A stretch of DNA of 38,684 nucleotides, from positions 1 to 38,684 of IMG/VR virus record IMGVR_UViG_3300021963_000296; one strand, given 5' to 3'. The position numbers and the translations under genes were made by a program. Below, in pieces: positions 1 to 38,083 of the stretch (its first letter is position 1; each line of letters starts with the position of its first letter). The notes below the pieces were generated by a model. That model made no database searches. It saw nothing but the letters and a program-made list of their open reading frames with translations, and had not been told where the DNA came from. The stretch is from a virus.

Positions 1-1
1 C

Positions 2-1849
2 ATCGTAACCCCTGCCACACAACAAGCCGTAGAGACTCGCCATGCTGAGATCATGGAAGCTATCTTTGGTCAGGGTGAATTCTTTGACATTCAAGATGAC
101 ATTCGGGATGTGAACAACAACCCCATCGATGTGGGCATCATCAAAGCCCAGTTGATGGAGGATTTCAAGCGGGACAAGATTCGTAAATCCATTGACCAGA
201 TCGAGTTAATGGCAGAAATCTACGGTACAGGCATTGGCGAGATTGTGGTTAAGACTGAAAAGCAGTTTGTACCCTCTACCCAACCGATTCCTGGGCAAAT
301 GGGTCAAGCAGCCATTGGCGTAGTGGAAAAAGACAGGGTTTCGGTCAAGATTTCACCTGTGAACCCCAAAAACTTCCTTTTTGACCCCAATGGAACCTCA
401 GTTGACGACTGCATGGGGGTCGCAATTGAGAAATACATCTCTATCCACAAGATTGTTGAAGGCATTGAGCGTGGAATCTACCGCAAAGTAGACATTGGCA
501 CTGCTGGTGAAGATACTGACCTGGAGCCAACCCAAGAAGTGAGCCAGTATCAGGACGAAAAGGTGCTTTTGCTGACCTACTATGGTCTGGTTCCCCGTGA
601 ATACTTGGAGAATCTCAGAGAAAGCAAAGAGATTGTTGAGTTGTTCCCTGAGAACTCTACTGCTGAAGAGTACACAGACATGGTTGAGGCCATTGTCGTG
701 ATTGCCAATGATGGGCAGTTGCTCAAAGCAGAGGCAAATCCTTACATGATGAAGGATCGCCCTGTTCTGACCTACCAAGATGACACGATTCCTAATCGTC
801 TTTTGGGTCGTGGAACAGTGGAAAAAGCCTTCAATATGCAAAAGGCTATTGATGCTCAGATTCGCTCCCATTTGGATTCGTTGGCGCTGACTACCAGCCC
901 CATGATTGCAATGGATGCAACCCGTCTGCCCCGTGGTGCTAAGTTTGAAGTCAAGCCTGGGAAGGCCATTCTCACCAATGGCGCCCCTTCAGAGATTCTG
1001 TATCCCTTCAAGTTTGGTCAGACTGATGGCAACAACCTAGCCACTGCCAAGGATTTCGAGCGTATGCTCCTGCAATCCACTGGAACTTTGGATTCTCAGG
1101 GAATGGTCAGTGCTGGCGCTAGAGACATGGGCCAAGGCGGTATGTCGATGGCAGTTGCCACCATCATCAAGAAGTACAAGCGTACTCTGGTGAACTTCCA
1201 AGAAGACTTCCTGATCCCCTTCATTCAGAAGGCAGCTTTCAGGTATATGCAGTTTGACCCAGAGCGTTACCCTTCAGTGGACATGACCTTCATTCCTACT
1301 GCCACTCTGGGCATCATTGCCCGTGAGCATGAGCAACAGATGTTCATTGGCTTGCTCCAGACCCTTGGCCCCAACACTCCTGTGTTGCCACTGATTCTGA
1401 AGGGTGTTTTGGCTAATTCTTCTTTGACCAACCGCTATGAACTGATGGAGCAGTTGGACAAGATGAGCCAGCCAAATCCGCAAGCAGAGCAAATGGCTCA
1501 GATGCAACAGCAGTTGGCTATGCAAGCTGCACAGGCTCAGATTGCTGTGAATGCAACACAAGCTGAACAGAATCGTGCAGAAGCTGAGAAGCTGAAGATA
1601 GAAACTCAGTTAATGCCACAAGAAATGCAAGCCAAGAGCATGGCGGCAATGACCAAGAATCTGCCAAACCAAGACGATGCTGGTTCAAAAGAGTTTGATA
1701 AGCGGGTTAAGATTGCTGAATTGATGCTGAAAGAAGCTGACATTAAGAACAAATCCAAGATTGTTGAGTTGCAAATGGCTGACAAGAAGGGCAAAATGTC
1801 GAGCGTTGAAGATGAGTTTCTCAATCGTCTTTCAAGGGAATTGACCTAA
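2..1849 (+). CDS. Portal protein of phage B, 5' end missing at the window edge
   Basis: The portal is the dodecameric ring at one capsid vertex through which DNA is packaged and ejected. The frame is open from base 2, so the true start lies outside the window; the first internal ATG (position 53) is not a credible start. The long alpha/beta body is followed by a Gln/Ala/Met-rich C-terminal helix (from about base 1470), typical of podovirus portals. It has the same general architecture as the portal at 20502-22520 but little visible sequence similarity, so it comes from a different phage lineage. The stop codon abuts the next gene's ATG at 1850, indicating translational coupling with the fibre gene. 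Portal assignment is by overall resemblance, since portals lack a catalytic motif. Confidence 0.75.
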   Translation: MVTPATQQAVETRHAEIMEAIFGQGEFFDIQDDIRDVNNNPIDVGIIKAQLMEDFKRDKIRKSIDQIELMAEIYGTGIGEIVVKTEKQFVPSTQPIPGQMGQAAIGVVEKDRVSVKISPVNPKNFLFDPNGTSVDDCMGVAIEKYISIHKIVEGIERGIYRKVDIGTAGEDTDLEPTQEVSQYQDEKVLLLTYYGLVPREYLENLRESKEIVELFPENSTAEEYTDMVEAIVVIANDGQLLKAEANPYMMKDRPVLTYQDDTIPNRLLGRGTVEKAFNMQKAIDAQIRSHLDSLALTTSPMIAMDATRLPRGAKFEVKPGKAILTNGAPSEILYPFKFGQTDGNNLATAKDFERMLLQSTGTLDSQGMVSAGARDMGQGGMSMAVATIIKKYKRTLVNFQEDFLIPFIQKAAFRYMQFDPERYPSVDMTFIPTATLGIIAREHEQQMFIGLLQTLGPNTPVLPLILKGVLANSSLTNRYELMEQLDKMSQPNPQAEQMAQMQQQLAMQAAQAQIAVNATQAEQNRAEAEKLKIETQLMPQEMQAKSMAAMTKNLPNQDDAGSKEFDKRVKIAELMLKEADIKNKSKIVELQMADKKGKMSSVEDEFLNRLSRELT

Positions 1850-3223
1850 ATGGACATTGCCGATCTTGAGCGTAAGCTAGGAATTGATGGTATTTCTGCT
1901 GAACAGCAGATGGAAATCATTTCCGCTTTGCAACAGTCTGCCGCTGAGAAGATTGCTAAGGCCAAGAGCGAGTCTATTGGCAAGGGCGCTGAACTTGTCA
2001 TCCAAGGCTTGAAGAAGATCAAGTCAGACATGGAGCAAAAGTTTGCTCAGTTGAATGGCGAGATTCAGAGCAAAGTTGCCTCTATTCAAGATGGTCAGGA
2101 TGGCAAAGATGGCAAAGATGGACGGGATGGCAGACAAGGGCCAGCAGGGTCAACAGGCGCAACAGGGCGAGATGGTGTTCCTGGGCGTGATGGAGTTGAT
2201 GGCGCTAACGGCACTGGTGTTGCCTCTGCTCGCATTGATTTTGATGGTAGTCTTATCATCACTCTTGATGATGGTCGTGAGATTAATGCTGGTGAGGTTG
2301 TTCCTTTTGATGTTGCTGAACGCATCAAAGTTATTACCAATGGTGGCGGTACTTCTCAGTCTGTACTTGATACTCTAACAAGCCTTCAGTCCCAAATTAC
2401 AGCTATGGCTGGATTTGTGAACTATGAAGGCACTTGGAACGCATCAACCAACACGCCCACCCTTGTTTCTAGCGTAGGAACAAAGGGAGACTACTATGTT
2501 GTCTCTGTAACAGGCTCAACCAATCTCAATGGCATTACAACTTGGACTCAAGGTGATTGGGCCATCTTCAATGGAACTGCTTGGGAAAAAGTAGATAACA
2601 CTGACCTTGTAACTTCAGTTGCAGGGCGTACTGGTGCTATTACTCTCACCACTGCTGATATTGGCGGTTTAGGGACAATTGCTACTCAAGCGGCAAGCAG
2701 TGTCTCTATCACTGGTGGATCAATCACAGGTATCACAGATTTAGCAGTTGCTGATGGTGGTACAGGTGCTTCTACTGCTGGTGATGCCAGAACCAATCTA
2801 GGTCTGGTCATAGGAACAGATGTTCTGTCTCCAAGTGGCTCGGCTGCAAACCTGACCTCATTCCCCACCTTCAATCAAAACACCACTGGCACAGCATCTA
2901 ATGTGACGGGTACTGTTGCTGTTTTAAATGGTGGTACAGGTGCAACTACTACCTCTGGAGCCAGGACGAATCTTGGTTTGGTGATTGGGACTGATGTTCT
3001 TGCTCCCACGGGGTCAGCGGCATCTTTGACCTCATTTCCAACATTCAACCAGAATACAACTGGAACTGCGGCATCTACACCTAAACTCTTGACTACAAAC
3101 TTCACAATTGAAGAAAGTGGTGGAAAGTTGATATTCAAGTATGGAGCAACGACAATTGCATCAATGTCTTCAACTGGATTGATTACTTCTTCTGCAAACA
3201 TTGTCTCCAATGGAACACCTTAA
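1850..3223 (+). CDS. Collagen-like tail fibre protein
   Basis: A 457-residue fibre protein. Residues 1-80 are helical and charged, probably a coiled coil or virion anchor. Residues 82-123 are about 14 Gly-X-Y triplets rich in GKD, GRD and GPA, a collagen-like trimeric stalk. Around residues 185-235 lies a Trp/Gly-rich segment (YEGTWNAS, GDWAIFNGTAWEKV) typical of phage fibre knob or carbohydrate-binding modules. The C-terminal part carries two 58-residue tandem repeats and a short beta-rich end. It follows the phage B portal with no gap and precedes the S74 fibre gene by 9 bases, with AAGGAAAA ahead of that next ATG. It probably forms part of the host-recognition apparatus. Receptor specificity cannot be read from the sequence. 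Confidence 0.8.
   Translation: MDIADLERKLGIDGISAEQQMEIISALQQSAAEKIAKAKSESIGKGAELVIQGLKKIKSDMEQKFAQLNGEIQSKVASIQDGQDGKDGKDGRDGRQGPAGSTGATGRDGVPGRDGVDGANGTGVASARIDFDGSLIITLDDGREINAGEVVPFDVAERIKVITNGGGTSQSVLDTLTSLQSQITAMAGFVNYEGTWNASTNTPTLVSSVGTKGDYYVVSVTGSTNLNGITTWTQGDWAIFNGTAWEKVDNTDLVTSVAGRTGAITLTTADIGGLGTIATQAASSVSITGGSITGITDLAVADGGTGASTAGDARTNLGLVIGTDVLSPSGSAANLTSFPTFNQNTTGTASNVTGTVAVLNGGTGATTTSGARTNLGLVIGTDVLAPTGSAASLTSFPTFNQNTTGTAASTPKLLTTNFTIEESGGKLIFKYGATTIASMSSTGLITSSANIVSNGTP
2756..3076 (+). repeat. Two tandem 58-residue repeats within the fibre gene
   Basis: Unit 1 starts at 2756 and unit 2 at 2930 (period 174 bp); unit 2 breaks off near 3076. The proteins share motifs such as RTNLGLVIGTDVL and LTSFPTFNQNTTGTA almost residue for residue, while third codon positions differ throughout. 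This suggests an old duplication kept under protein-level selection. Confidence 0.85.
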
Positions 3224-3232
3224 AGGAAAATT

Positions 3233-4759
3233 ATGGCAACCTCAACACTAGGTTCTGGAACACTTGTTCTTGCTGGAACCACATCAGGAACTACGACACT
3301 GCAAGCAACTGCGGTGGCTGGTACTACCACTTTGACGCTTCCTGCGGCTACTGACACTTTGGTTGGTAAAGCAACGACTGATACGCTAACCAATAAGACG
3401 CTGACAGGTGCGGCAATGAATGGTACTTTGGGGGTAACTACTCCAAGTACAGTAGCGGCAACATCTATTTCTGCATCTACAACTTTGGGTGTTACTGGCG
3501 TATCTACCCTAACTGGTGGTGCAGTAATTGAAGGCCTCACAGTAGGCCGTGGCGCAGGTGCTGTATCCACCAACACTGCGGTGGGTGCTAGTACTTTGGC
3601 GGCTGTGACAAGCGGCGGTTCTCTTGTTGCTGTCGGTTCTAACGCTGGTAAAGCCTTGACGACTGGTTCTGATAGCGTTGCTGTTGGCGCTAATGCTTTG
3701 CAGTTTGCCACGACTGGGACTGCTAACGTAGGCGTTGGTCAGGCCTCTTTGTATCAAACAACCACAGGCAACTACAACTCCGCACTTGGTACTGGCGCAC
3801 TTCAGAACAACACCACAGCATCTAACAACACTGCTGTTGGCTATCAGGCTGGATATAGTGGAACAACTGGCGGGGCAACTGCTGGTCAAAATGTGTTTAT
3901 TGGTTATCAAGCTGGATACAACACAAACCATAGTCGCCACACAATTGTTGGTTGGGGCGCAGGTAATGGTGTAACAACTGGCGATCGTATTACTGCTTTT
4001 GGACACACGGCTGGAAGTCTCTGCACAGGAAGTTTTAACACATTTATTGGCGGCTCGGCTGGTCGAGACCAAACATCTGGAACAGGCAACAGCTATCTTG
4101 GAGAATCTGCTGGTTACTTGATGACCACTGGTAGCGCAAATACCATCCTTGGCGGCTACTCAGGCAACCAAGGTGGCCTAGACATTCGCACATCAAGCAA
4201 CTACATCGTGCTGTCTGATGGGGATGGGAATCCACGGGGATATTTTGGTGGCCCGGGTAGCATTGGTAACGGTTGTTTTATAAAAACAGGCGATTCCTCC
4301 ACCTCACGCATTCTTCCCGCCACAGATAATGTTGGTTATATTGGTGAAAATTCTTATCGCTGGCAAGCAATTTACGCTGTTAACGGAACAATTCAAACTT
4401 CCGATGGTCGTGAAAAGAACACAATTGCGGACAGCAATCTTGGATTGGATTTTGTTGCTTCGTTACGCCCAGTTTCATACAAATGGAATGTTGGTGAAAA
4501 TGTGGTTACTTATGATGAAGAAAACAACCCAATTGTTACGTCCCGTGCAGGTGTCCGTTCGCACTATGGTTTTATTGCTCAAGAAGTTAAGGCAGTAATT
4601 CCTGAAGGCGTTGACTTTGGTGGTTTTGTGCAAGAACCTAATGACGGAAGGATGTCTTTACGCTACCACGAATTTATCGGGCCTCTTGTCAAAGCAATCC
4701 AAGAACTCAAAGCAGAGGTTGACAGCCTCAAAGCCCAAATCAACGGAGCATCAGCATGA
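3233..4759 (+). CDS. Tail fibre with YadA-like head repeats and S74 intramolecular chaperone (copy 1)
   Basis: A 508-residue trimeric fibre. Residues 1-95 are Thr/Ala-rich with heptad-like TLTNKTLTG motifs. Residues about 100-330 contain repeated NTAVG, AVGxxAG and FIGxxAG motifs, resembling the beta-roll of YadA-type adhesins. The C-terminus (about 388-508) is a Peptidase S74 / endosialidase chaperone domain: TSDGREKNT with the expected autocleavage serine at S390, then LRPVSYKW, HYGFIAQEV and a final coiled coil. In this family the chaperone drives trimerisation and then cuts itself off. The gene looks mosaic: its N-terminal part follows the phage B portal and collagen fibre, while everything after the 754-bp repeat leads into the phage A lysis region. 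ATG 3233 is preceded by AAGGAAAA. Confidence 0.9.
   Translation: MATSTLGSGTLVLAGTTSGTTTLQATAVAGTTTLTLPAATDTLVGKATTDTLTNKTLTGAAMNGTLGVTTPSTVAATSISASTTLGVTGVSTLTGGAVIEGLTVGRGAGAVSTNTAVGASTLAAVTSGGSLVAVGSNAGKALTTGSDSVAVGANALQFATTGTANVGVGQASLYQTTTGNYNSALGTGALQNNTTASNNTAVGYQAGYSGTTGGATAGQNVFIGYQAGYNTNHSRHTIVGWGAGNGVTTGDRITAFGHTAGSLCTGSFNTFIGGSAGRDQTSGTGNSYLGESAGYLMTTGSANTILGGYSGNQGGLDIRTSSNYIVLSDGDGNPRGYFGGPGSIGNGCFIKTGDSSTSRILPATDNVGYIGENSYRWQAIYAVNGTIQTSDGREKNTIADSNLGLDFVASLRPVSYKWNVGENVVTYDEENNPIVTSRAGVRSHYGFIAQEVKAVIPEGVDFGGFVQEPNDGRMSLRYHEFIGPLVKAIQELKAEVDSLKAQINGASA
3534..4287 (+). repeat. Long direct repeat, copy 1 (fibre beta-roll region)
   Basis: This 754-bp segment matches 35578-36331 at a constant offset of 32,044 bp. 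By eye there are three mismatches (3541 A/C, 4180 A/C, 4193 T/G). Bases 3542-4179 are identical over 638 bp. Upstream the genes are unrelated in sequence. Downstream, to about 4755, they encode very similar proteins with many synonymous differences. The sharp identity block inside diverged genes points to recent recombination or an assembly bridge. Confidence 0.95.
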
Positions 4760-4968
4760 ACGACTTAACACCCGAAGAACAAATCGCCCAGCACTACAGT
4801 GCCGCAATGGACTCAGTTAACCTCATCAATGCTGGCAAGCCCGAAGACATGGAAGATGCTGATTGGGCAGACTGCCTGTCACGCAACAAAGAGCATTTGA
4901 AGATCATGCTGGCAAAAGACTTTTGGACAACTGAGAATCTTGAACCACTACGGGCTGCATCCACATGA
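4756..4968 (+). CDS. Conserved small protein downstream of the fibre (phage A copy)
   Basis: A 70-residue acidic protein of unknown function, with EEQIAQHYSAAMDSV near the N-terminus and a NKEHLKIMLAKD segment. It overlaps the fibre stop by four bases (ATGA). A close homologue lies in the phage B flank (37364-37582), also just downstream of an S74 fibre gene; the two share stretches of identical nucleotides around NKEHLKIMLAKD. The constant association with the fibre suggests a fibre-linked role, such as assembly or a small virion component, but that is inference. No membrane segment or metal site is visible. Confidence 0.8.
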   Translation: MNDLTPEEQIAQHYSAAMDSVNLINAGKPEDMEDADWADCLSRNKEHLKIMLAKDFWTTENLEPLRAAST

Positions 4969-5111
4969 TTAAACTAGACTTGTCATTAGAAGAAGTAAAC
5001 AACATTCTTCATGTATTGGGCGAACTTCCCACCCGCATGAATGCCTATCCTCTATTGATGAAAATCAAAGAGCAAGCGGAGGCTCAGTTACCGAAAGAGC
5101 AAAGTGAGTGA
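4965..5111 (+). CDS. Small hypothetical protein, 48 aa
   Basis: Begins MIKLDLSLEEVNNILHVLGE and overlaps the preceding stop by ATGA. The sequence is predicted helical throughout, with a hydrophobic face (VNNILHVLGELP and NAYPLLMKIKEQAEAQL). Short phage proteins of this type, a single helical hairpin, are common beside lysis genes, but no function is assigned. Support is from the tight coupling on both sides: it overlaps the next gene's GTG by eight bases. Confidence 0.65.
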   Translation: MIKLDLSLEEVNNILHVLGELPTRMNAYPLLMKIKEQAEAQLPKEQSE

Positions 5112-5301
5112 AGATGTTGACAAGCGATTAGCAGTGCATGAGGCGATTTGCGCTGAACGCTACATCAAGATAGTCGATCAACTATCTGATGGGTCTAAGC
5201 GCATGAGCAAGATTGAATACTTGCTTTACGCTGTGATTCTAGCTGTGTTGCTTGGCCCCGGCGTAGCGGCTGATTTCGTGAAGAAACTATTGGGGCTTTG
5301 A
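5104..5301 (+). CDS. Small membrane protein, candidate holin-like
   Basis: A 65-residue protein starting at GTG 5104, which overlaps the upstream gene by eight bases. Residues 1-37 are soluble and charged (VDKRLAVHEAICAERYIKI). Residues about 39-60 form one hydrophobic segment (YLLYAVILAVLLGPGVAADF), followed by a short lysine-containing tail. One transmembrane helix with a short basic C-terminus, upstream of spanins and endolysin, fits a small holin or lysis regulator. The motif is not diagnostic and several neighbours are also membrane proteins, so the holin label is only a possibility. Confidence 0.65.
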   Translation: MSEDVDKRLAVHEAICAERYIKIVDQLSDGSKRMSKIEYLLYAVILAVLLGPGVAADFVKKLLGL

Positions 5302-5326
5302 CATTGACCCTCTCACTCTTTTGGCG

Positions 5327-6004
5327 ATGGCAAACGGATGCGTTGCAGCTATCCGAAAGGGATGTGAACTCTACAAAGATGTTAAGGGCACAATATCTGC
5401 GGCACAAAAGACTGCCAAAGAGGTTACAGCCATTGCAGAGGAAGTCGGTGGGTTCTTTGGTTTCTTCAAGAAGAAGAAAAAACCTACTGATAAACCCGTT
5501 GCTGCACCAAAACCAAAGAAAGCCGAACCCGAAGTTTGGGACGAAGGCAAAGTCATTGCTGATTTGGCGGCTAATCTCGGACAGTTCTTCAAGATTCAAC
5601 AACAGTTGGCAGACCACATCCGAGAAGAAGAAGAAAAATCTAAAAATGTTTATGACCCAAATCAAAACATCATGGAATCTGCTCTCAACCGAGAATTGGC
5701 AAAAACTCAGTTTGAGAAGCTATCCAAGGAAATCAGAGAGATCATGGTGTATCAGTCCCCCAAAGAGTTAGGGAACTTGTACACCCGTGTAAATCAGATG
5801 AGGGTGCAGATCATTGAAGAACAAGAGCAAGCGCGGTTAGCACAAGAGAAAAGGATTCGTGAAGCAGAATGGAAGCGGCGAAAGATGATTTCGGCAATTC
5901 AAGACAAAGCGATCTACGGGGTGGCTTGTCTAGTATTTCTGCTGTATCTCGTTTTGTTTTTCACTTTACTCGTTATGGACAGAAAAGTCAGATGGGGTTT
6001 CTAG
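5327..6004 (+). CDS. Lysine-rich, coiled-coil membrane protein
   Basis: A 225-residue protein with a helical N-terminus, a striking basic linker at residues 48-66 (FFKKKKKPTDKP followed by Pro/Lys-rich sequence), a long charged helical region (70-190, with IIEEQEQARLAQEKRIREAEWKRR), and one transmembrane helix at 196-216. ATG 5327 is used; an in-frame TTG at 5321 is the alternative and neither has a strong ribosome site. The coiled coil preceding a C-terminal membrane anchor suggests a cytoplasmic protein tethered to the inner membrane. Its place between fibre and spanin genes suggests lysis or virion-exit function, but it is not a recognised family. Confidence 0.75.
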   Translation: MANGCVAAIRKGCELYKDVKGTISAAQKTAKEVTAIAEEVGGFFGFFKKKKKPTDKPVAAPKPKKAEPEVWDEGKVIADLAANLGQFFKIQQQLADHIREEEEKSKNVYDPNQNIMESALNRELAKTQFEKLSKEIREIMVYQSPKELGNLYTRVNQMRVQIIEEQEQARLAQEKRIREAEWKRRKMISAIQDKAIYGVACLVFLLYLVLFFTLLVMDRKVRWGF

Positions 6005-6186
6005 TCGCTCTAATTGCAATGGTGATTGTGTTCGCCTTGATGCTTCCTTTGATTGGGAGCATTTATTACGACACGCTCGCCACACAGAAAGAAAGCAAGA
6101 TGCAGATCGAGAGGATGGAGCGACTCCGACAGCAGTTAGAGCAAGACCGTAAAGATTTGGACAGAATGAAAAATGAGTCAAAATAA
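5992..6186 (+). CDS. Small single-pass membrane protein with C-terminal coiled coil
   Basis: A 64-residue protein starting MGFLVALIAMVIVFALMLPL, one N-terminal membrane segment, then a charged helix rich in Glu, Arg, Lys and Gln (IERMERLRQQLEQDRKDLDR). It overlaps the end of the previous gene by 13 bases. The topology (N-terminal anchor, periplasmic or cytoplasmic coiled coil) resembles a miniature inner-membrane spanin, yet a convincing Rz/Rz1 pair already exists at 7534-8025. It could also be a holin partner. Function unassigned. Confidence 0.7.
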   Translation: MGFLVALIAMVIVFALMLPLIGSIYYDTLATQKESKMQIERMERLRQQLEQDRKDLDRMKNESK

Positions 6187-6256
6187 ATTCTTGTGGTGCG
6201 TAATTGTCATATCCATTGCGGTGGTTCTTCTTATGAGTGGGTGCGAAGTTGTTTAA
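6173..6256 (+). CDS. Tiny putative lipoprotein, 27 aa
   Basis: Reads MSQNKFLWCVIVISIAVVLL then MSGCEVV and stop. A hydrophobic signal segment ends in a lipobox-like MSGC, leaving a three-residue mature tail after the cysteine. It overlaps the preceding gene by 14 bases. The following 70 bp hold a hairpin and then the HNH gene, so this may be the remaining front end of a longer lipoprotein cut off by the insertion. Equally it may be complete. Confidence 0.5.
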   Translation: MSQNKFLWCVIVISIAVVLLMSGCEVV

Positions 6257-6267
6257 GTTAAAATGCA

Positions 6268-6299
6268 AAATGCCAAACGGCGGGAACCGAATGGCATTT
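6268..6299 (+). promoter_or_regulatory. Hairpin between lipoprotein and HNH genes
   Basis: Arms AAATGCCA (6268-6275) and TGGCATTT (6292-6299) are perfectly complementary. Inside them lies a symmetric AA/AA bulge and a second CGG/CCG stem with loop CGGGAA. It sits 15 bases before the AAGGAG of the HNH gene. Weak terminator, mRNA processing site or translation control are all possible. Confidence 0.5.
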
Positions 6300-6326
6300 C
6301 TAACCAACACGATGAAGGAGCATCAA

Positions 6327-6830
6327 ATGGCTGAGAAAATTTTATCACGAGATAGATTGTGCGAACTGCTAGAAGTTGACACAGAAAATGGCATTTTCAC
6401 TTGGCGGCACACAATGGGTGGTCGGGCCAAGAAAGGTCAGCAAGCTGGCGCGTTAGGTGCTAATGGTTATGTCTCCATAGGCATTGACCAAAAAGATTTT
6501 TTGGCACATCGTTTAATGTGGCTTTATGTATATGGCGCAATCCCTTTGCTTCAAATAGACCACATTGACAGAAACAGAACCAACAATAAACCTATTAATT
6601 TACGCCTTGCCACACAAAAGCAAAATAGCGAAAACATCTATCGTGTAAAAACAAACACATCCGGTTATCGCGGTGTTCGGTGTGAAAGCAGACTTTCCTC
6701 AAAACCGTGGTCAGCAACAATTACGCATAACTATAAACAAAAACATCTTGGTTATTATGCAACTGTTGAAGAAGCGGTAGTAGCAAGAAAAGCTGCCGAA
6801 GATTTATATTTCACACACCATATGCCATGA
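6327..6830 (+). CDS. HNH endonuclease with AP2 DNA-binding domain
   Basis: A 167-residue free-standing homing-endonuclease-like protein. The HNH core is visible as AHRLMW (H61) and IDHIDRNRTNNKPINLR (77-93), followed by an AP2-type domain from TSGYRGVR (111-118) to about residue 165 with the typical HLGYYATVEEAVVARKAAE helix. Such proteins make a single-strand or double-strand cut at a specific site and can spread their own gene. The start is ATG 6327, preceded by AAGGAG six bases upstream, rather than the GTG at 6237. Its codon choice is AT-richer than the neighbours. It is inserted in a run of small lysis-region genes, and its stop overlaps the next lipoprotein gene. A second, distinct HNH-AP2 gene is at 36865. 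Confidence 0.9.
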   Translation: MAEKILSRDRLCELLEVDTENGIFTWRHTMGGRAKKGQQAGALGANGYVSIGIDQKDFLAHRLMWLYVYGAIPLLQIDHIDRNRTNNKPINLRLATQKQNSENIYRVKTNTSGYRGVRCESRLSSKPWSATITHNYKQKHLGYYATVEEAVVARKAAEDLYFTHHMP

Positions 6831-7066
6831 TTAAAAAACTAAGTTTTACATTGTTGGCAATAAGTGCATTAACGGCTTGCTTTGAAGACAGGTACCGCTA
6901 TGTTTGTCAGAACCCCGACAAGTTCGATCTACCGGAATGTCAAAAGCCCCGCTGTCTGTTTACCCAAACTTGCCCCGAGTATCTAGTCGCACCCATCTTG
7001 ACAAACAAGATTGAACCGCCAAAAGCTGAAGAAAAGAAAGCAGAGGTTCCAAATGCAACCAATTGA
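6827..7066 (+). CDS. Putative lipoprotein, Cys-rich
   Basis: A 79-residue protein with signal peptide MIKKLSFTLLAISALTAC; the lipobox is LTAC (C18). The mature part has five further cysteines (VCQN, LPECQKPRC, FTQTCPEY) and a Lys/Glu/Pro-rich tail. It should be lipid-anchored in the outer membrane with intra-chain disulphides. It starts by ATGA overlap with the HNH stop and precedes another membrane protein. It could be an exclusion or lysis-related lipoprotein; no family is recognised. A separate o-spanin is better supported at 7733. Confidence 0.75.
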   Translation: MIKKLSFTLLAISALTACFEDRYRYVCQNPDKFDLPECQKPRCLFTQTCPEYLVAPILTNKIEPPKAEEKKAEVPNATN

Positions 7067-7541
7067 GAGCAATTACTCAATGAACGACAAAATCCAATTG
7101 GTCGAGACTTATGTTTGGGCTAGTGTCGTTTTGATTGTGACCATCATTCTTGCGGGTATCGTAATTGCAATGCTCTATTCAGTGACATTCATCACTCAAC
7201 CAATCAAAAGCCTTGCGCCGATTGACCAAGCCTATTTGAAGATGATGAATGACATAGTATTACTTATTGTTGGCGGCATAGGTGGAGTGATGAGCAGAAA
7301 AGGTGTTCAAGCGATTGCAGACAGAGTGTCTACACCTACACCTCCCCCAACAGTTTCAACGCCTTCTAGCCCACCTATAACGCCTCCTACTCCATCAAAT
7401 GCTTTGCCGGTGTGGGTCAATCCTCCTTTGGATGAAAGCTGGACTCCCCCACCTCCCCCCACTACCCCGCCCCAACATCTAGAGGCTGATTCTGTGCGTG
7501 AAGAAATCGCTGCTGCTCGGCATGAGGTGAAGAATGGTTAA
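7053..7541 (+). CDS. Two-TM membrane protein with Pro-rich tail, holin candidate
   Basis: A 162-residue protein from ATG 7053 (AGAGG lies seven bases upstream; ATG 7080 is the alternative). Hydrophobic segments lie near residues 20-45 (VWASVVLIVTIILAGIVIAM) and 68-84 (DIVLLIVGGIGGVMSRKG). The C-terminal half is dominated by Pro/Thr/Ser runs and ends in a charged helix. Two membrane segments directly upstream of the spanin and endolysin genes make this the best positioned holin candidate in phage A. The proline-rich cytoplasmic or periplasmic tail is unusual for a holin. It overlaps the i-spanin gene by eight bases. Confidence 0.75.
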   Translation: MQPIESNYSMNDKIQLVETYVWASVVLIVTIILAGIVIAMLYSVTFITQPIKSLAPIDQAYLKMMNDIVLLIVGGIGGVMSRKGVQAIADRVSTPTPPPTVSTPSSPPITPPTPSNALPVWVNPPLDESWTPPPPPTTPPQHLEADSVREEIAAARHEVKNG

Positions 7542-8025
7542 TCCCTACTTCATCATTGGGGCAATGATTGCTGTGGGCGGTGCTTACGGCTACGGGCATC
7601 ATGTTGGATGGGGCGACCGTGACGCTGAGATGCAAGTCGAGATCGCCAAAAAGAATGATGAAGCAAGAGAAAAAGAAACCCAACTTGCCCAACAATTGAA
7701 CGAACAATCAACCAAACTTTCGGAGGCCAATAATGTCATCAATCAAAAGCAGTCTAGTCTTGATCGCGCTATTCGTGATGGTCGGTTGCGCCTCCCGTCC
7801 ACAAGTTGCGTACAAGCCCCCACAAATGCCCCCACTCCCACCGGAGATAGCCCAAAAGAGAGAAGTGAACCTAACCGACCGGTTTATGAAACTTCTGACT
7901 CCGAACGAGCAACACTCGCAGCAATCGCCGAAATCATCGCCCAAGGCGACAGAAACACCGCGCAATTGAATGCGTGTATCGACTCGTACAACAAAGTGAT
8001 GGGGGTGATGAATGCTAACCGCTGA
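7534..8025 (+). CDS. Rz: i-spanin (Rz-like)
   Basis: A 163-residue inner-membrane spanin. It has an N-terminal anchor (YFIIGAMIAVGGAYGYGHHVG) followed by a long periplasmic coiled coil (VEIAKKNDEAREKETQLAQQ and onward) and a globular end with two cysteines (C92 and C148). With the outer-membrane partner encoded inside it, it fuses the inner and outer membranes in the last step of lysis of Gram-negative cells. Residues DGRLRLPSTSC are characteristic of the Rz family. It overlaps both the putative holin gene and the endolysin gene, forming a compact lysis cassette. Confidence 0.88.
   Translation: MVNPYFIIGAMIAVGGAYGYGHHVGWGDRDAEMQVEIAKKNDEAREKETQLAQQLNEQSTKLSEANNVINQKQSSLDRAIRDGRLRLPSTSCVQAPTNAPTPTGDSPKERSEPNRPVYETSDSERATLAAIAEIIAQGDRNTAQLNACIDSYNKVMGVMNANR
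7733..7969 (+). CDS. Rz1: o-spanin (Rz1-like), embedded out of frame in the i-spanin gene
   Basis: A 78-residue lipoprotein read in another frame entirely within the i-spanin gene. The signal peptide MSSIKSSLVLIALFVMVGC ends in lipobox MVGC (C19). It is followed by a proline-rich stretch (KPPQMPPLPPEIAQ) typical of Rz1. The protein would sit in the outer membrane and bind the i-spanin coiled coil across the periplasm. The nested Rz/Rz1 arrangement is well known from lambda-like phages and strongly supports both calls. The upstream AAACTTTCGGAGG (7718-7730) supplies a ribosome site. Confidence 0.88.
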   Translation: MSSIKSSLVLIALFVMVGCASRPQVAYKPPQMPPLPPEIAQKREVNLTDRFMKLLTPNEQHSQQSPKSSPKATETPRN

Positions 8026-8605
8026 CCAACTAAAGAAACTCCACATTGGGGCCGAGTGGGTTGATGCACTCAATGAGACCTTTGGTAGATTCAATATCTC
8101 CACCAAGCGCCAACAAGCTGCCTTTATCGGTCAGTGCGGACACGAATGCGGACACTTCAAGACATTGGAAGAAAACCTCAATTACCGCGCTGAAACGCTC
8201 ATGAAGCTGTGGCCTAAGAGGTTTCCCACTTTGGACTTTGCCAATCAGTATTCTCGTAATCCTAAAAAAATTGCCAACAGCGTGTATAGCGGTCGTATGG
8301 GAAACCGTGATGAGGCTAGCGGAGACGGGTATCGGTTTCGCGGTAGAGGTTGCATTCAGTTGACCGGACACGCTAACTACTTCCATGCCGGACAAGCGTT
8401 AGGAGTAGATTTCGTGATGGAACCCGATCTAGTCGCCACACCAAAATACGCAGCTTTAACAGCGGGTTGGTTTTGGTCTACGCACGACTGCAACCGTCTC
8501 GCGGAAGAGGCCAATTGGACGGGTCTCACAAAGAAGATCAACGGCGGGACTATCGGGCTTGACGATAGGATTAACCACACGAATCAAGCCTTATCTGTCT
8601 TGTAA
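8012..8605 (+). CDS. Endolysin, glycoside hydrolase family 19
   Basis: A 197-residue chitinase-fold muralytic enzyme expected to cut the beta-1,4 glycan strands of peptidoglycan. GH19 signatures are clear: FIGQCGHECGHF with the general acid E45, then EENLNYRAE (second acidic position E53/E54), and the substrate-groove motif FRGRGCIQLTG at 109-119 followed by GHANY. There is no signal sequence, so export needs a holin. It overlaps the i-spanin end by 14 bases and closes the rightward lysis cassette. Its 3' end overlaps the stop of the convergent zinc-ribbon gene by 22 bases, with no clear terminator between them. Confidence 0.93.
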   Translation: MLTADQLKKLHIGAEWVDALNETFGRFNISTKRQQAAFIGQCGHECGHFKTLEENLNYRAETLMKLWPKRFPTLDFANQYSRNPKKIANSVYSGRMGNRDEASGDGYRFRGRGCIQLTGHANYFHAGQALGVDFVMEPDLVATPKYAALTAGWFWSTHDCNRLAEEANWTGLTKKINGGTIGLDDRINHTNQALSVL

Positions 8606-8772
8606 CGCTTGACCATTCTGAGGACATTTTCATGTGAGATAAAGCGATGCCCGTTGTAGCACTCCCTTCGTCTGACAAGCATATTCTCCTCAGTTTTTGT
8701 GTGTTGAACAAACGAGATTGCTTTGCACTCGGGACACTTCATGCCGGAATTATTCGTACTCTTAGGATTCAT
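8584..8772 (-). CDS. NrdR-like zinc-ribbon protein
   Basis: From ATG 8772 this is 62 residues; it contains MKCPECKAISFVQHTK and RRRECYNGHRF, a CxxC...CxxxH zinc ribbon very like the N-terminal domain of NrdR, but without the ATP-cone. Small stand-alone ribbons of this type occur in many phages and may bind DNA or RNA polymerase (Ogr-like), but a role here is not shown. Starts at TTG 8781 or ATG 8742 are also possible and none has a strong ribosome site. It is the last gene of the leftward early operon and partly overlaps the small membrane peptide upstream. Confidence 0.7.
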   Translation of the reverse strand: MNPKSTNNSGMKCPECKAISFVQHTKTEENMLVRRRECYNGHRFISHENVLRMVKRYKTDKA

Positions 8773-8866
8773 TGAGGGCAAGCCAAACCATAAAACAGAT
8801 GACAGAAATGGCTAGTGCGATTCCTAAGAACCCCAAAGCAAAGATGATTAGGACAGTCTCGATCAC
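8762..8866 (-). CDS. 34-residue membrane peptide
   Basis: Begins at GTG 8866, four bases into the previous stop (GTGA), with AGGGGGG upstream as ribosome site. It reads as one long hydrophobic helix (TVLIIFALGFLGIALAISVI...) ending in LNES. The coupling, strong Shine-Dalgarno sequence and pure transmembrane composition support a real gene despite its length. It would be an inner-membrane peptide of the early operon; function unknown. Confidence 0.6.
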   Translation of the reverse strand: MIETVLIIFALGFLGIALAISVICFMVWLALNES

Positions 8867-9015
8867 ATAACCCCCCTCATCTCCCATCCGACTAAAAAAT
8901 AATTCCATCTGCCTTGCATGGCGGGGTTGGTGTACTTGTCGCCAGTCATGGCTAGATCGGCATCTGTGTAGCCCTTAGATGACATAAGTGCGTGGAATAC
9001 TTGTCTTGCTTTCAT
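8863..9015 (-). CDS. Small hypothetical protein, 50 aa
   Basis: The ATG at 9015 overlaps the upstream stop (ATGA) and is preferred to longer in-frame starts, which would overlap the upstream gene by 70 bases. It begins MKARQVFHALMSSKGYTDAD and ends with aromatic-rich WNYFLVGWEMRGVM. No family is recognised. Its place in the leftward operon, behind Erf and exonuclease genes, suggests an early accessory protein. Confidence 0.65.
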   Translation of the reverse strand: MKARQVFHALMSSKGYTDADLAMTGDKYTNPAMQGRWNYFLVGWEMRGVM

Positions 9016-9230
9016 TTCTTCATGTTCCTTACATAAGCTGTAAACGACTGAATCGTGTCTTTGCCAAACGCTAGAGTGCATTTCTCAATGTGTTGGGCGA
9101 CTTCTTCAATCACAACATTCCGCGCATTGTTTTCAGCGTATCGGATTATTTGGTGTTTGCGCGACCCTTGAAGACCCCAATCGCCTTGTCTGCGACTGAG
9201 TTCTTCAAACGCTTCATCTTCCGGACTCAA
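9012..9230 (-). CDS. Small hypothetical early protein, 72 aa
   Basis: Uses a TTG start at 9230 overlapping the previous stop (TTGA); no in-frame ATG is nearby. The protein is helical and charged (MSPEDEAFEELSRRQGDWGL; NNARNVVIEEVAQHIEKC). No known domain is visible. It is packed between two four-base overlaps in the recombination operon. Confidence 0.65.
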   Translation of the reverse strand: MSPEDEAFEELSRRQGDWGLQGSRKHQIIRYAENNARNVVIEEVAQHIEKCTLAFGKDTIQSFTAYVRNMKK

Positions 9231-9463
9231 AACCCAATGTCCTCATCGTTATCGGCGGGTAAGCCTTTATATTCTTTTGGTTTAGGGTCGTTCATGTATG
9301 CCCAACCGTCCCACCCCGCATAGATGGGCATTACATCAAGTTTCAGCATGGGGCCGTTCTTTGTATCGAGGACAGACCCAATACGGATGTATCGTTTCTT
9401 TTCTTCACCCTTTGCGTTGGTGTAAGAACCCGCAACTACGGTAACTTCTTTAAGCAGTGCCAT
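9227..9463 (-). CDS. Conserved early protein adjacent to YqaJ exonuclease
   Basis: A 78-residue protein with a beta-rich pattern (LLKEVTVVAGSYTNAKGEEK, KRYIRIGSVLDTKNGPMLKL) and an aromatic segment GWDGWAYMNDPKP. Short proteins of this look often sit beside phage exonuclease/annealase pairs and may be OB-fold-like nucleic-acid-binding partners; that is inference from context and pattern only. ATG 9463 overlaps the exonuclease end by 14 bases, so production is probably coupled to the recombinase. Confidence 0.7.
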   Translation of the reverse strand: MALLKEVTVVAGSYTNAKGEEKKRYIRIGSVLDTKNGPMLKLDVMPIYAGWDGWAYMNDPKPKEYKGLPADNDEDIGF

Positions 9464-18962: not shown

Positions 18963-19261
18963 GTGGCGTAAGACACGGCGGCAGGGGCATAGGAACGCCG
19001 AATAAGGCCACATCTGAGGCAAGACAAGCCATAGCTACCTTTGTGGATGGAAACGCATGGCGGCTCTCTATTTGGCTTGACAAGGTAGCAGAGGGTGACC
19101 CCGAGCATGACATAAAGCCAAACCCCGCAAAGGCATTTGAACTATTCCAATCAGTAGTGGAGTATCACATTCCAAAGCTGGCAAGGACAGAACACGCCGG
19201 AGACTCAGAAAATCCCATTGAAATGAAAGTCACATGGGCGCAACCGAACAATCCATCGTAA
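18959..19261 (+). CDS. terS: Terminase small subunit
   Basis: A 100-residue protein starting GVRHGGRGIGTPNKATSEAR, the recurrent opening of phage small terminases, followed by a helical body (FELFQSVVEYHIPKLARTEH). TerS rings bind the packaging site and regulate TerL. It is shorter than classical P22-like TerS (about 160 residues), as is frequent in small podoviruses. It overlaps TerL by 28 bases. Confidence 0.82.
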   Translation: MSGVRHGGRGIGTPNKATSEARQAIATFVDGNAWRLSIWLDKVAEGDPEHDIKPNPAKAFELFQSVVEYHIPKLARTEHAGDSENPIEMKVTWAQPNNPS

Positions 19262-20502
19262 TCCCGTATAGCCCGAGAAAAGAGCAATTGCAGATTCATA
19301 CTCTGCTAGACGCTAAACGGTTCGGAGTGGTGGTGGCCCATCGTAGGATGGGAAAGACGGTCAGTGCAATCAACCATCTGATTAAAGATGCGGTGAGCAA
19401 CCAAAAGGAAGCCCCGAGATACGCTTACATCGCTCCAACCTACGGGCAAGCAAAGCGGGTGGCATGGGACTACCTCACGAAGTACGCAAGACCGTTAGGC
19501 GGTACAGAGAACATTTCTGAGTTACGGGTGGACTTTTGGAACCGTAGGATTCAGTTATACGGCTCAGATAACCCCGATTCACTACGCGGTCAGTACTTTG
19601 ATGGGGTGATTCTTGATGAGATTGGCGACCAAAACCCAAAGATATGGACAGACATAATTCGACCGTCATTGGCTGATCGTCTCGGGTGGTGTTGCTTTAT
19701 CGGAACGCCAAAGGGCCACAATCACTTCAAAGACCTCAGAGATCGGGCAGAAACTGAGGACGGGTGGGGACTATTGGAGTTCAAAGCCTCCCAAACAGAG
19801 GTCTTGACCATTACCGAACTTAAAGCGGCTCGGGTGGAAATGGGGGAAGATAAGTACCTTCAAGAGTTTGAATGCTCGTTTACCGCAGCGGTGGAGGGGT
19901 CGTACTACGGTCAACTGCTCAATGATTTGGACGAAAAGAACCACATTCAAGAGATTCCCCGCGATGACCTTTGTAAGACAGTGTGTGCATGGGACTTAGG
20001 AATGGGTGACTCAACGGTGATTTGGGTGGCTCAAGTGGTCGGCTCAGAAATCCGATTGATGGACTTTTACGAGAATAACGGGGTGGGTCTTGACAGCTAT
20101 GTAAATTGGTTGAGGCATAATGGGTGGGACAAAGCCGAGCAAATCCTACCTCACGATGTACAAGTGCGGGAACTCGGGACGGGGAAAAGCCGACTAGAGG
20201 TTTTAACCGATGCTGGATTGAACATTCGGGTTGCCCCACGCATGGGGGTCGATGATGGCATCCAAGCGGTACGAAGGCTTCTCCCACGATGCTGGTTCAA
20301 TGTGCCAAAGGTCAAGCAAGGACTAGACGCACTCAGAAACTACCGAAGGGATTACGATGAAAAGCGGAAAATCTTTTACGACCGACCACTTCATGATTGG
20401 AGTAGCCATAGTGCTGATGCTTTCCGCTATCTTGCAATCGGTCTAAACGAAACAACCGGCTGGTCAAAGATGCCCACTCAAAATGTGAAATGGATTGTGT
20501 GA
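19234..20502 (+). CDS. terL: Terminase large subunit
   Basis: A 422-residue packaging motor. The ATPase domain has Walker A AHRRMGKT (35-42) with the adenine-binding Q18/Q20 area upstream, Walker B VILDE (125-129), and the coupling motif IGTPKG (156-161). The nuclease domain is CAWDLGMGDST (D254), LPHDV (D308) and SHSADAFRY (D395), all three metal-binding acids present. This is a complete, active-looking TerL that should cut concatemers and pump DNA through the portal at 20502. Family features are compatible with headful packaging, which would give circularly permuted genomes. It ends with a TGATG overlap into the portal. Confidence 0.95.
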   Translation: MGATEQSIVIPYSPRKEQLQIHTLLDAKRFGVVVAHRRMGKTVSAINHLIKDAVSNQKEAPRYAYIAPTYGQAKRVAWDYLTKYARPLGGTENISELRVDFWNRRIQLYGSDNPDSLRGQYFDGVILDEIGDQNPKIWTDIIRPSLADRLGWCCFIGTPKGHNHFKDLRDRAETEDGWGLLEFKASQTEVLTITELKAARVEMGEDKYLQEFECSFTAAVEGSYYGQLLNDLDEKNHIQEIPRDDLCKTVCAWDLGMGDSTVIWVAQVVGSEIRLMDFYENNGVGLDSYVNWLRHNGWDKAEQILPHDVQVRELGTGKSRLEVLTDAGLNIRVAPRMGVDDGIQAVRRLLPRCWFNVPKVKQGLDALRNYRRDYDEKRKIFYDRPLHDWSSHSADAFRYLAIGLNETTGWSKMPTQNVKWIV

Positions 20503-22520
20503 TGGACGAAAACAAACTCAAATCAATCATCGATGCTGAGATTTCCAACAGTCTCGGCTATTTGGAGACTGAGACCACTGAACAGCGCAGAGAAGCACTG
20601 CAAAGCTACCTCCGGCAACCATACGGCAATGAGGTGGAAGGCAAGTCTCAGATTGTCACGGGTGAGGTGGCAGAGGCCGTGGACGGTTCTCTCCCGTCAT
20701 TGGTGCGAATCTTCTCGGCAAGCGATGAGGTGGTGAGGTTTGAACCCCGTGGGCCTAATGATGAGGCCGGAGCAAAGCAAGCCACTGAGTATGTCAATTG
20801 GGTATTCAATCGTGACAACGAAGGCGTGATTATTCTTCACGATTGGTTTAAGGATGCGCTTCTCCAAAAGGTCGGAGTGGTCAAAGCCTATTGGGAAGAC
20901 AAAGAAGATGTCATCAAAGAAAAGTACCGTGATCTAACTGATGACGAACTCGCCATGCTGATGAGCGATGGCACGATGGAGATCGTTGAGCAAGACTCGC
21001 AAGAATTCGATCAGATGACCCCAATGGGGCCGATGAAGGTCAAGATTCATGCTGTGACGGTCTCTAAGAAGCAAAAGACGGGTCGTGTGGTGGTGGAGAA
21101 TGTCCCACCCGAAGAATTCCTAATCTCTAAGAAGGCCCGAAGGATTGAGGGTGCGCCTTTCGTTGCCCACCGTAAGCTGATGACTCGTAGCGACTTGATC
21201 GCTATGGGCTTTGATGCTGACATTGTGGACGGGATTCCCGCAAGTGATTCACTGACATACACGCCGGAACGACTCGTAAGGTTCTCCAATGGTGAGCAAC
21301 CGGATGATTCCACAAGCATGGATGACTCTATGCAGAGTGTGGAAGTGTTTGAGTGCTACCTACGGGCAGACATGGACGGTGACGGGATAGCTGAACTGCG
21401 CCAAGTGTTCTATGCTGGAAACGAAATTCTGTCAGATGAGGAGTGCGACTATGTGCCATTCCACTCGATTTGCCCGATTCCAATCCCACACAAGTTTTTC
21501 GGTCAATCATTGGCAGACCGCACGACAGACATTCAGCTTCAAAAGACCACTATCACCCGTCAGATTTTGGATAACCTCTATCTGACAAACAACGCTCGGG
21601 TTACTGCGGTTGACGGTCAAGTGAACTTAGATGATTTGCTGACTGCCACTGCTGGCGGTGTGGTGCGGATTAAGTCTCAAGGCGCTGTGCAACCGTTACA
21701 AGTGCAACCCGTTGCGGGACAAGCCTTCCCGATGCTTCAGTATCTTGACTCTGTGGCTCAAAAGCGCACCGGAGTATCAGACGCATCACAAGGGCTAGAC
21801 CCCGCTATTTTGCAGAATGTGACTGCTGCTGCTGTGGCATCTATGCAAGCTGCTGGCGCGGGTAAGGTCGAACTGATAGCGCGAATCTTTGCGGAGACGG
21901 GTGTTAAATCGCTTTTCAAAGGGATTCTGCATCTGCTTTGCAAGTATCAAGACAAACCCCGTATCGTGCGGATGCGCGGCTCGTATGTGGCATTTGACCC
22001 GCGTGAGTGGTCGAATCAGTACGATGTGGACATAAATGTTGGTCTCGGTGCTGGCAACCGTCAAGAACAGATGGCGATGCTGCAAATGGTCTTGCAGAAA
22101 CAAGAGCAAGTGTTGGGACAAATGGGGCCAGCAAACCCGTTGGTGAGCATTGGTCAGTATCGCAACACTCTCGGTCGGATGGTGGAAGCTGCCGGATTCA
22201 AGGACAGTGCAGAGTTCTACAAAGCCATTCCTCCGGAGGTCGATCAGCAATTGAGTAACCCGCAACCGCAACAACCGCAAATGTCGCCCGAAGCACAAGC
22301 GGCAATGGCAAAGGTTCAAGCCGACATTCAGAGTATGCAAATGAAGGCAGAGGCAGATATTCAATTGGCCCGTGAAAAGGCGATGGCAGATATGCAGCTA
22401 CAGCGGGACAAGTTCCAAGCTGAAATGATGTTTAGAAAGCAAGAGTTTGAAGCAGAGGCCCAATTGAAGGCAATGAAGGTCGGTGCGGGGATTACCTCAA
22501 ACATTGAGATTCCGGGGTAA
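20502..22520 (+). CDS. Portal protein, P22-like (phage A)
   Basis: A 672-residue portal. The body begins with KLKSIIDAEISNSLGYLETE; YGNEVEGKSQIVTGEVAEAV and SLVRIFSASDEVVRFEPRGP match podovirus portals of the P22 type. DRTTDIQLQKTTITRQILDN and RTGVSDASQGLDP are the wing and crown elements. The C-terminal 120 residues form a Gln/Ala/Met-rich coiled coil, as in P22 barrels. Start at ATG 20502 (TGATG with the TerL stop); ATG 20490 is possible. It is the only portal inside the 32-kb unit. The other portal, at the left window edge, belongs to the flanking phage. Confidence 0.92.
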   Translation: MDENKLKSIIDAEISNSLGYLETETTEQRREALQSYLRQPYGNEVEGKSQIVTGEVAEAVDGSLPSLVRIFSASDEVVRFEPRGPNDEAGAKQATEYVNWVFNRDNEGVIILHDWFKDALLQKVGVVKAYWEDKEDVIKEKYRDLTDDELAMLMSDGTMEIVEQDSQEFDQMTPMGPMKVKIHAVTVSKKQKTGRVVVENVPPEEFLISKKARRIEGAPFVAHRKLMTRSDLIAMGFDADIVDGIPASDSLTYTPERLVRFSNGEQPDDSTSMDDSMQSVEVFECYLRADMDGDGIAELRQVFYAGNEILSDEECDYVPFHSICPIPIPHKFFGQSLADRTTDIQLQKTTITRQILDNLYLTNNARVTAVDGQVNLDDLLTATAGGVVRIKSQGAVQPLQVQPVAGQAFPMLQYLDSVAQKRTGVSDASQGLDPAILQNVTAAAVASMQAAGAGKVELIARIFAETGVKSLFKGILHLLCKYQDKPRIVRMRGSYVAFDPREWSNQYDVDINVGLGAGNRQEQMAMLQMVLQKQEQVLGQMGPANPLVSIGQYRNTLGRMVEAAGFKDSAEFYKAIPPEVDQQLSNPQPQQPQMSPEAQAAMAKVQADIQSMQMKAEADIQLAREKAMADMQLQRDKFQAEMMFRKQEFEAEAQLKAMKVGAGITSNIEIPG

Positions 22521-22522
22521 GT

Positions 22523-23788
22523 ATGTTTGAAGCAATTACCCAACAGCTTAAAAATGTTCAAGCTGCACAAGAACGGGGCGAGGCAGACCCGTGGAGTTTT
22601 TACACGCGACCCGTTGCAAGTTCGGGAGGACTCGGATTTTTTAATCAGCTTGCAAGTTTAGACCCTAGCACCGCGATTAGTCGTGAACTAACAAACTTAG
22701 CCCAACCCGTTGAAAAGACAATAAGCCAAAATCTAGCCCAATTAGACAAAGATTTAAGCCTATCTGAGAATGCCCCATTATTGGCGGCAATCGCAGTAAG
22801 TGTGGCAATGCCGGGGGTCGGCTCTGCTATTGGTCAGCAAATGATGGCGGCAGGACTGCTACCCGCTACCACATCGGCGGCGGTGGCCTCTGCAATTGGT
22901 ACGGGTGTGGCTAACGCTGCCCTACAAGTTGCACAAGGCAAGTCACCGGAGGATGCTCTAAAGGGTGCTGTGGTTGGCGGGGTGGCGGGTTTTGCAGGTG
23001 GGCAAGTGGGCGACTATTTGGTGGGCGACCCCGGCGCGGTGAAGAACTTTGTCTCTAGCACTGCGGCTAATATGGTTTCGGGTAAAGACCCCGAGACAGC
23101 GGCAAAGACTGCACTTATTCAAACGGGCATTCAAGGCACTGCGGACACAATATCAAAAGCACAAGCCGAAAAGTACATCGAGACCCTTCCCATTCCCGAT
23201 TATTTAGATGCTGGCTCTGCCCCAACAAGTCAAGACACGATGGCGGCATATCCGGAGACCAATCCGGTAAACATTCAAGGCCCACCGGAGGCCATTGATA
23301 CGACACTGCTTGATCTAGCCAAAGCACCGCCATCGACACAGACATACACCTATGAGGATGGAAGCACCCTTACGGTTGATGAAGGCGGCGGTGTAGTTGG
23401 TTATACAGATGCAACCAAAACCCCATATCAAGGCCCAATCTCTACACCGTCAAGCCCACTCACTAAATCGCAGATTGAGGGCATGATTAAACTCGGCTTA
23501 ACTGTTGCTGGTGCAAGTCAAGCAAGCAAGGCGGTGCAAGACGCAATATCTAGCGGTGGTGGAACCCAAACAAGCGGTTTTCAATTCACACCGTCAGATA
23601 TATCAAGTTGGGGTCAACCGGAATACACGCAAACCTTTCAAGGCCCAATCGACATAAATTCACTGTTTGCCACTGACAATCTATTAGGTGGCACTCAATG
23701 GGCAGGGCTGCAAGGCAACCAATTTGCCAATATCCCGCAAGTGTCAATGTCTGACTTCATATCGAGTATCCAAAATGGAAAAGTTTGA
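22523..23788 (+). CDS. Gly/Ala-rich virion protein between portal and scaffold
   Basis: A 421-residue protein. Residues 80-190 are hydrophobic, Gly/Ala-rich (LLAAIAVSVAMPGVGSAIGQ, AVVGGVAGFAGGQVGDYL), able to insert in membranes. The rest is Pro/Thr/Ser-rich, with a Gly-rich stretch and an aromatic C-terminus. This look is typical of internal virion or ejection proteins, and of proteins that line the portal. No family recognised. It lies two bases after the portal stop and overlaps the next gene by 14 bases. Confidence 0.65.
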   Translation: MFEAITQQLKNVQAAQERGEADPWSFYTRPVASSGGLGFFNQLASLDPSTAISRELTNLAQPVEKTISQNLAQLDKDLSLSENAPLLAAIAVSVAMPGVGSAIGQQMMAAGLLPATTSAAVASAIGTGVANAALQVAQGKSPEDALKGAVVGGVAGFAGGQVGDYLVGDPGAVKNFVSSTAANMVSGKDPETAAKTALIQTGIQGTADTISKAQAEKYIETLPIPDYLDAGSAPTSQDTMAAYPETNPVNIQGPPEAIDTTLLDLAKAPPSTQTYTYEDGSTLTVDEGGGVVGYTDATKTPYQGPISTPSSPLTKSQIEGMIKLGLTVAGASQASKAVQDAISSGGGTQTSGFQFTPSDISSWGQPEYTQTFQGPIDINSLFATDNLLGGTQWAGLQGNQFANIPQVSMSDFISSIQNGKV

Positions 23789-24005
23789 ACGCGCACAAAA
23801 TCTACTTTCAGATGATTTCTTTTTGGAAGAAATGGAAGAATTAAAGCAATCTGAATTGCTGAATATAGTTAACTCTGCGCCCGATGATATTGAAGCGCGA
23901 GAACTTGCATATTTAAAAATTCATGCTTTACAATCAATTAAAGGCCACTTCGAATCAATCGCTGCCACGGGCAAAATTGTTTCAAAGCGGTGGAGAATTT
24001 TGTAA
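23775..24005 (+). CDS. Small helical head-assembly-linked protein, 76 aa
   Basis: Starts at ATG 23775 inside the end of the previous gene. An acidic helix (DDFFLEEMEELKQSELLNIV) is followed by a second helix with ELAYLKIHALQSIKGHFESI. It resembles small proteins found just upstream of scaffold genes in many podoviruses. Role unknown, probably in head assembly. Two hairpins follow its stop. Confidence 0.65.
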   Translation: MEKFERAQNLLSDDFFLEEMEELKQSELLNIVNSAPDDIEARELAYLKIHALQSIKGHFESIAATGKIVSKRWRIL

Positions 24006-24037
24006 TCGTTGATTACACCGTGGCACTCGGTAAGTGC
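24001..24037 (+). promoter_or_regulatory. Two tandem short hairpins upstream of the scaffold gene
   Basis: TGTAATC-GTT-GATTACA (24001-24017) and GCACT-CGGTA-AGTGC (24023-24037) lie one after the other in the 50-bp gap before the scaffold ATG. Neither has a T-run, so mRNA processing or control of scaffold and capsid translation fits better than termination. Confidence 0.5.
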
Positions 24038-24055
24038 TGACAACTTGGGTAAGAA

Positions 24056-24994: not shown

Positions 24995-25009
24995 CTCAAG
25001 GATTCAATC

Positions 25010-35231: not shown

Positions 35232-35234
35232 ATC

Positions 35235-36797: not shown

Positions 36798-36856
36798 ACA
36801 TGAATGAAATCACCGCAGAACAAATCGCCCAGCACCTCAGTGCCGCTAATCTTTAA
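36794..36856 (+). pseudogene. Truncated remnant of the small fibre-linked gene
   Basis: Reads MNMNEITAEQIAQHLSAANL and stops. It matches the first 17 or so residues of 4756-4968, including the nucleotide stretch GAACAAATCGCCCAGCAC. It sits at the same place relative to the fibre stop. The HNH gene follows eight bases later, and a full-length homologue follows that. This looks like the broken front of the gene, left where the HNH cassette entered. Confidence 0.7.
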
Positions 36857-36864
36857 GGACTAAC

Positions 36865-38029: not shown

Positions 38030-38083
38030 ACAGAAATGTCGAGTTGATTCTCCTACAACCGAAACGGCAGGAAAAGGGAAAAT

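Follow-up and report, generated by a model that had tools for sequence, protein, structure and literature searches.

Tail-fibre tips determine which host a phage infects, and the question raised by this locus is why a single viral record should hold the same stretch of fibre gene twice. The window, i.e. the whole stretch of DNA that was analysed (38,684 bp, IMG/VR record IMGVR_UViG_3300021963_000296), carries two copies of a shared fibre block 32,044 bp apart, copy 1 at 3542–4287 and copy 2 at 35586–36331; both copies lie on the plus strand, as do the fibre ORFs, the A and B parts, the phage A portal, the small-ORF copies, the HNH gene at 36865–37377 and the endolysin gene described below. A preliminary description, which did not mention that both copies are in a single record, had read the shared block as the recent exchange of a receptor-facing β-roll between two different phages with a shared host.

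The fibre block and its protein

Self-alignment of the window places both copies in one long repeat (3527–4805 against 35571–36846). The 638-bp nucleotide identity that had been reported is exact (3542–4179 = 35586–36223); it is followed by mismatches at 4180 and 4193 and then by 94 identical bases ending at 4287, giving 744/746 identity across 3542–4287. From 4288 onwards the copies diverge by ~12%, mostly at synonymous positions (35 synonymous against 10 non-synonymous codon changes in 4288–4752), and 5′ of the block the likeness is limited to 15 bp (12/15 identical) and a 36-nt shaft motif (83%), the remainder being unrelated; the description of both flanks was accurate. Homology of the copies extends beyond the fibre gene into a small ORF of 70 aa (4756–4968) that overlaps the fibre stop and has no match among Pfam or PHROGs families. 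On the sequence, a chance origin of the 638-bp match is excluded.

Each copy lies in a fibre ORF (3233–4759 and 35235–36797) that ends in an S74 chaperone domain (Peptidase_S74 intramolecular chaperone), an assignment that is secure (48.8 and 47.3 bits, curated cut-off 22). The fibre weakly matches the T5 L-shaped fibre (PDB: 4uw8) and contains repeats of the NTAVG type that are YadA-head-like by sequence. A predicted structure of low overall confidence has paired short strands at residues 114–307 (pLDDT ~70). The repeats and the strand pairs in this mid-confidence region would fit a β-roll as described, but a search of PDB structures with the fibre model gave no significant match. Full-length relatives of the fibre reach only 56–57% identity in a protein scan, and an exact 31-mer scan of the IMG/VR contigs searched found the tip core in no other viral contig. 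An S74-type fibre C-terminus also occurs in very large viral contigs (L308–L310, ~258 kb), where it has 43% identity to the one in the window.

Two phages in one record

The record is almost certainly an assembly chimera of two phages, denoted A and B. It holds two portal genes, one at 2–1849 (cut by the record end) and one at 20490–22520; both match the SU10 portal family, with only 21.7% amino acid identity between them. Superimposing the two repeat copies closes 3542–35585 to a circle of 32,044 bp (phage A), which contains terminase, portal (20490–22520, SU10 type), scaffold, SU10-type capsid, the fibre start and lysis genes. The outer ends of the record then form one contiguous phage B stretch with, in order, a portal (portal′), a collagen-like protein, a fibre (fibre′), an HNH gene and a scaffold-like protein (scaffold′). 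Family matches and relatives of B assign the left part (1–3541: truncated portal′, collagen-like protein at 1850–3223 and fibre′ N-terminus), and the right part (36332–38684: fibre′ C-terminus, HNH gene, small ORF and a truncated scaffold-like protein from 38084) adjoins portal′ DNA in B relatives. In relatives of A, 35224–35440 runs on to 4987–9440, and the exact breakpoint may lie anywhere in the shared block. The ORF at 3233–4759, with a B-type N-terminus, the shared block and a C-terminus adjoining A DNA, is probably a B/A hybrid made by the assembly, and that at 35235–36797, with an A-type N-terminus and a C-terminus adjoining B DNA, is probably the reciprocal hybrid. Two internal repeats were also seen, a 142-bp direct repeat (74%, 2754–3069) inside the phage B collagen-like protein gene and a 30-bp tandem motif in three copies (62–77%, 28031–28137) in a probable phage A structural gene (27313–28203).

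Independent contigs show each set of flanks to be continuous within its own lineage, which, together with the portals, bears out the claim that two different phages are present. In type A contigs the fibre start (35224–35440) continues to window 4987–9440, and type B contigs have the order portal′–collagen–fibre–scaffold′ with no A DNA. Among all fetched loci, joins across the fibre are A-to-A at 35 loci (22 distinct contigs, counted by contig name) and B-to-B at 81 loci (some from the same contig); mixed joins are confined to the records IMGVR_UViG_3300011337_000066 (G004) and IMGVR_UViG_3300020044_000279, plus a weak one in the distant B-type contig L456. End overlaps identify circular records of A [33,370 bp (123 nt, exact) and 32,320 bp (127 nt, one mismatch)] and of B [35,787 bp (99 nt, exact)]. 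A close relative of B carries a terminase and a capsid gene of its own and is arranged as TerL–portal′–collagen–fibre–scaffold′–MCP. When an A core segment (19234–25960) was compared with 40 B records, only a single one matched (70% over ~440 bp). By portal, the isolate nearest to A is Methylophilales phage Venkman EXVC282S (51%); B distantly resembles HMO-2011-type phages (~24%). In record 3300020044_000279 (L432/L356), positions 1–8204 have an inverted A lysis region directly before an A fibre, and the fibre is followed by B scaffold′ DNA. This is either a fold-back assembly artefact or a rearrangement, and the record was weighed as weak support only.

The join in the window lies at a repeat long enough for collapse (638 bp exact), which changes how the identity is to be read. 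The 638/638 figure is not an independent measurement, because an assembler that traverses a collapsed repeat a second time outputs identical letters. The assembler word was probably longer than 94 bp, since the copies stay separate across the 94-bp identical run. To be joined at either end of the block, A and B must nevertheless have sequence in common there; judged from the behaviour of the assembly, the block ends are probably truly shared and the middle of the block is less certainly so.

Probable exchange of fibre tips at conserved joints

A second record of like design, G004 (37,020 bp), also has A inside B: B portal′ and the collagen fibre come first, followed by A, the A fibre and B scaffold′. 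This chimera is joined at a different tip from that of the window (exact run 701 bp). An ordinary B contig, IMGVR_UViG_3300009068_000945 (L413), has a fibre that matches the A fibre of G004 at 97.1% over 1,050 bp; that A fibre comes from another metagenome than L413 and from a chimeric record. Of this match, 455 bp (11 mismatches) precede the run that is exact between the two G004 copies. Near-identical fibre DNA thus occurs in phages whose core genes, as judged by the portals, are unrelated. Non-chimeric A and B contigs have modules in common at 96% over 160 bp, 91% over 272 bp and 85% over 487 bp, as well as a 3′ flank at up to 93.9% over 342 bp, and for 10 of the 28 A tips that have any match the best match is a B tip. 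For the majority of non-chimeric A/B pairs, sharing is limited to modules that are short or 75–90% identical, and the data therefore contain few very recent swaps. Taken together, these comparisons support a real swapping of host-recognition fibre tips between the A and B lineages. The preliminary claim of recent exchange holds to the extent that tips move between these lineages, as G004 and L413 indicate, but the 638/638 figure cannot simply be accepted as it stands in a record that is spliced at the block itself.

When non-chimeric A and B fibres are projected on the window, cross-lineage likeness falls at ~3540–3610 (GLTVGRGAG...), 3782–3870, 4142–4250 (NYIVLSDGDGNPR) and 4700–4970, with almost no A/B match between these joints. 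The first joint coincides with the start of the 638-bp block, and near-identity stops just beyond the third. The last comprises the fibre C-terminus, in which QELKAEVDSLKAQINGA is nearly invariant across the A and B lineages, and the small ORF at 4756–4968, a conserved 3′ joint common to both. Beside copy 2, in the B half, this ORF is interrupted: a truncated start (36800–36856, read from the sequence) is followed by a homing-type endonuclease gene (36865–37377) with an HNH_3 domain (53.2 bits, cut-off 24.8) and an AP2 match (25.0 bits, under the cut-off of 33.3), and an intact copy of the ORF (37364–37582), recognized as a self-repeat of the window, lies 3′ of it. Two A contigs (L331 and L179) have a different homing-type nuclease gene, with a NUMOD3 motif, in the same small ORF. 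Only a minority of contigs, from A as well as from B, carry relatives of the HNH and NUMOD3 nucleases in the fibre interval. The window has a second HNH_3 endonuclease gene at 6237–6830, within the phage A lysis region.

We consider it probable (roughly 0.83) that the record is a chimera of A and B from one sample, joined at an identical or nearly identical fibre stretch, and that this stretch reflects the swapping of tips by homologous recombination at conserved joints. A and B would have been present together, both carrying the stretch, and the assembler would have passed from B into it, gone once round circular A, crossed the stretch a second time and come out in B. The two lineages would share one pool of fibre tips, exchanged between co-infecting phages at short conserved joints, namely the shaft and GLTVGRGAG motif at the 5′ side, NYIVLSDGDGNPR in the middle and the fibre C-terminus with the small ORF at the 3′ side. 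The homing-type nuclease genes at the 3′ joint, if active, might raise the rate of swapping by break-and-copy conversion. A wider proposal is put forward tentatively and at rather less than even odds: that A and B, although unrelated, keep one pool of swappable tips with standard joints and homing-type nuclease genes, and that swaps are so frequent that co-resident members match and assemblies show recurrent A-in-B chimeras.

That one phage alone carries the block, the assembler having jumped from B to the A tip at short conserved joints with no recent swap in this pair, is unlikely. Cross-lineage joints do sit exactly at the block start (3540–3610) and near its end (4142–4250), collapsed repeats come out identical, and bubble removal could mask differences in mid-block. 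However, the joints measure only ~70–110 bp and the copies stay apart across 94 identical bases, which suggests that longer shared words were needed; high-identity sharing between A and B is moreover seen elsewhere, in G004 and L413. A natural cointegrate, in which A recombined into B at the fibre to give one real molecule with two portals, would explain why the A-in-B design recurs in two records from different samples (the window and G004), but we judge it very unlikely: it would measure ~32 + 36 kb with two capsid and portal sets and is complete in no record, A and B occur alone in the 22 A contigs, the 81 B loci and the circular single-lineage genomes, and the tip used for the join differs between the two chimeras. 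One phage whose two paralogous fibre genes stay similar through gene conversion, for which the presence of both copies on one contig might speak, is rejected in view of the two unrelated portals and two scaffold genes, the relatives, in which one such fibre is flanked by A genes alone or by B genes alone, and the circular single-lineage genomes.

Common host and relation to known systems

The GH19 endolysin of phage A (8012–8605) is 85.8% identical in amino acid sequence to that of a B genome (82% at the nucleotide level over 1.2 kb), where it is located elsewhere. Because this gene is shared as well, a common host of A and B is supported, though without proof. Six metagenomes, judged from the names of the contigs, contain both lineages (3300027608, 3300046000, 3300042868, 3300007734, 3300031857 and 3300007735); the samples seem to be freshwater. 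The shared host of the preliminary description is therefore plausible from the shared tips, the endolysin and the shared metagenomes. A scan of bacterial and archaeal genomes found no relatives of the A portal. tRNA and Rfam searches within the window gave no match. Two distant B-type contigs (L456 and L463) have, unlike closer B genomes, A-like lysis DNA (cf. window 7605–8199) between portal′ and scaffold′; the lysis module, too, may move next to the fibre, to judge by gene order.

Given a pair of lineages whose swap joints are mapped and whose co-resident members carry matching tips, exchange rates and shared hosts would become measurable in uncultured phages. The record also serves as a warning that viral records with two portals can be chimeras with the join in a fibre gene, and it suggests mining such chimeras for recently shared receptor-binding modules.

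Sharing of fibres between unrelated phage lineages has a counterpart in the Alteromonas phages A5, V22 and P24, which have a tail fibre and a neighbouring gene in common (PMC10579305). In that case the phages are isolates with a known host and a tested fibre function, and the transfer was judged old; A and B are uncultured, with DNA identity of up to 97% between lineages and exchange of the tip within the fibre gene. A survey of protein families resembles the present case in that fibres and endolysins are mosaic classes, with high-identity fragments in otherwise different proteins, whereas here the joints are mapped at the DNA level for one pair of lineages. Nuclease genes are known at the borders of genetic exchange between phages (PMC10448857), and the likeness extends to HNH and other homing-type nuclease genes edging the exchanged region and to the pairing of HNH and AP2 domains. 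The islands described there exceed 10 kb, whereas the fibre tip of A and B is ~1 kb and its putative nuclease genes occur in a minority of contigs. Repeats and mosaic modules are likewise known to yield fragmented or chimeric phage contigs (PMC10563150 and references therein); in the A/B case the entire circular genome of one phage is looped into the other, and this is seen in two samples with a different fibre tip each time. That unrelated phages can share fibres is thus already known; what is less usual is that A-in-B chimeras recur, and that they do so at different shared tips.
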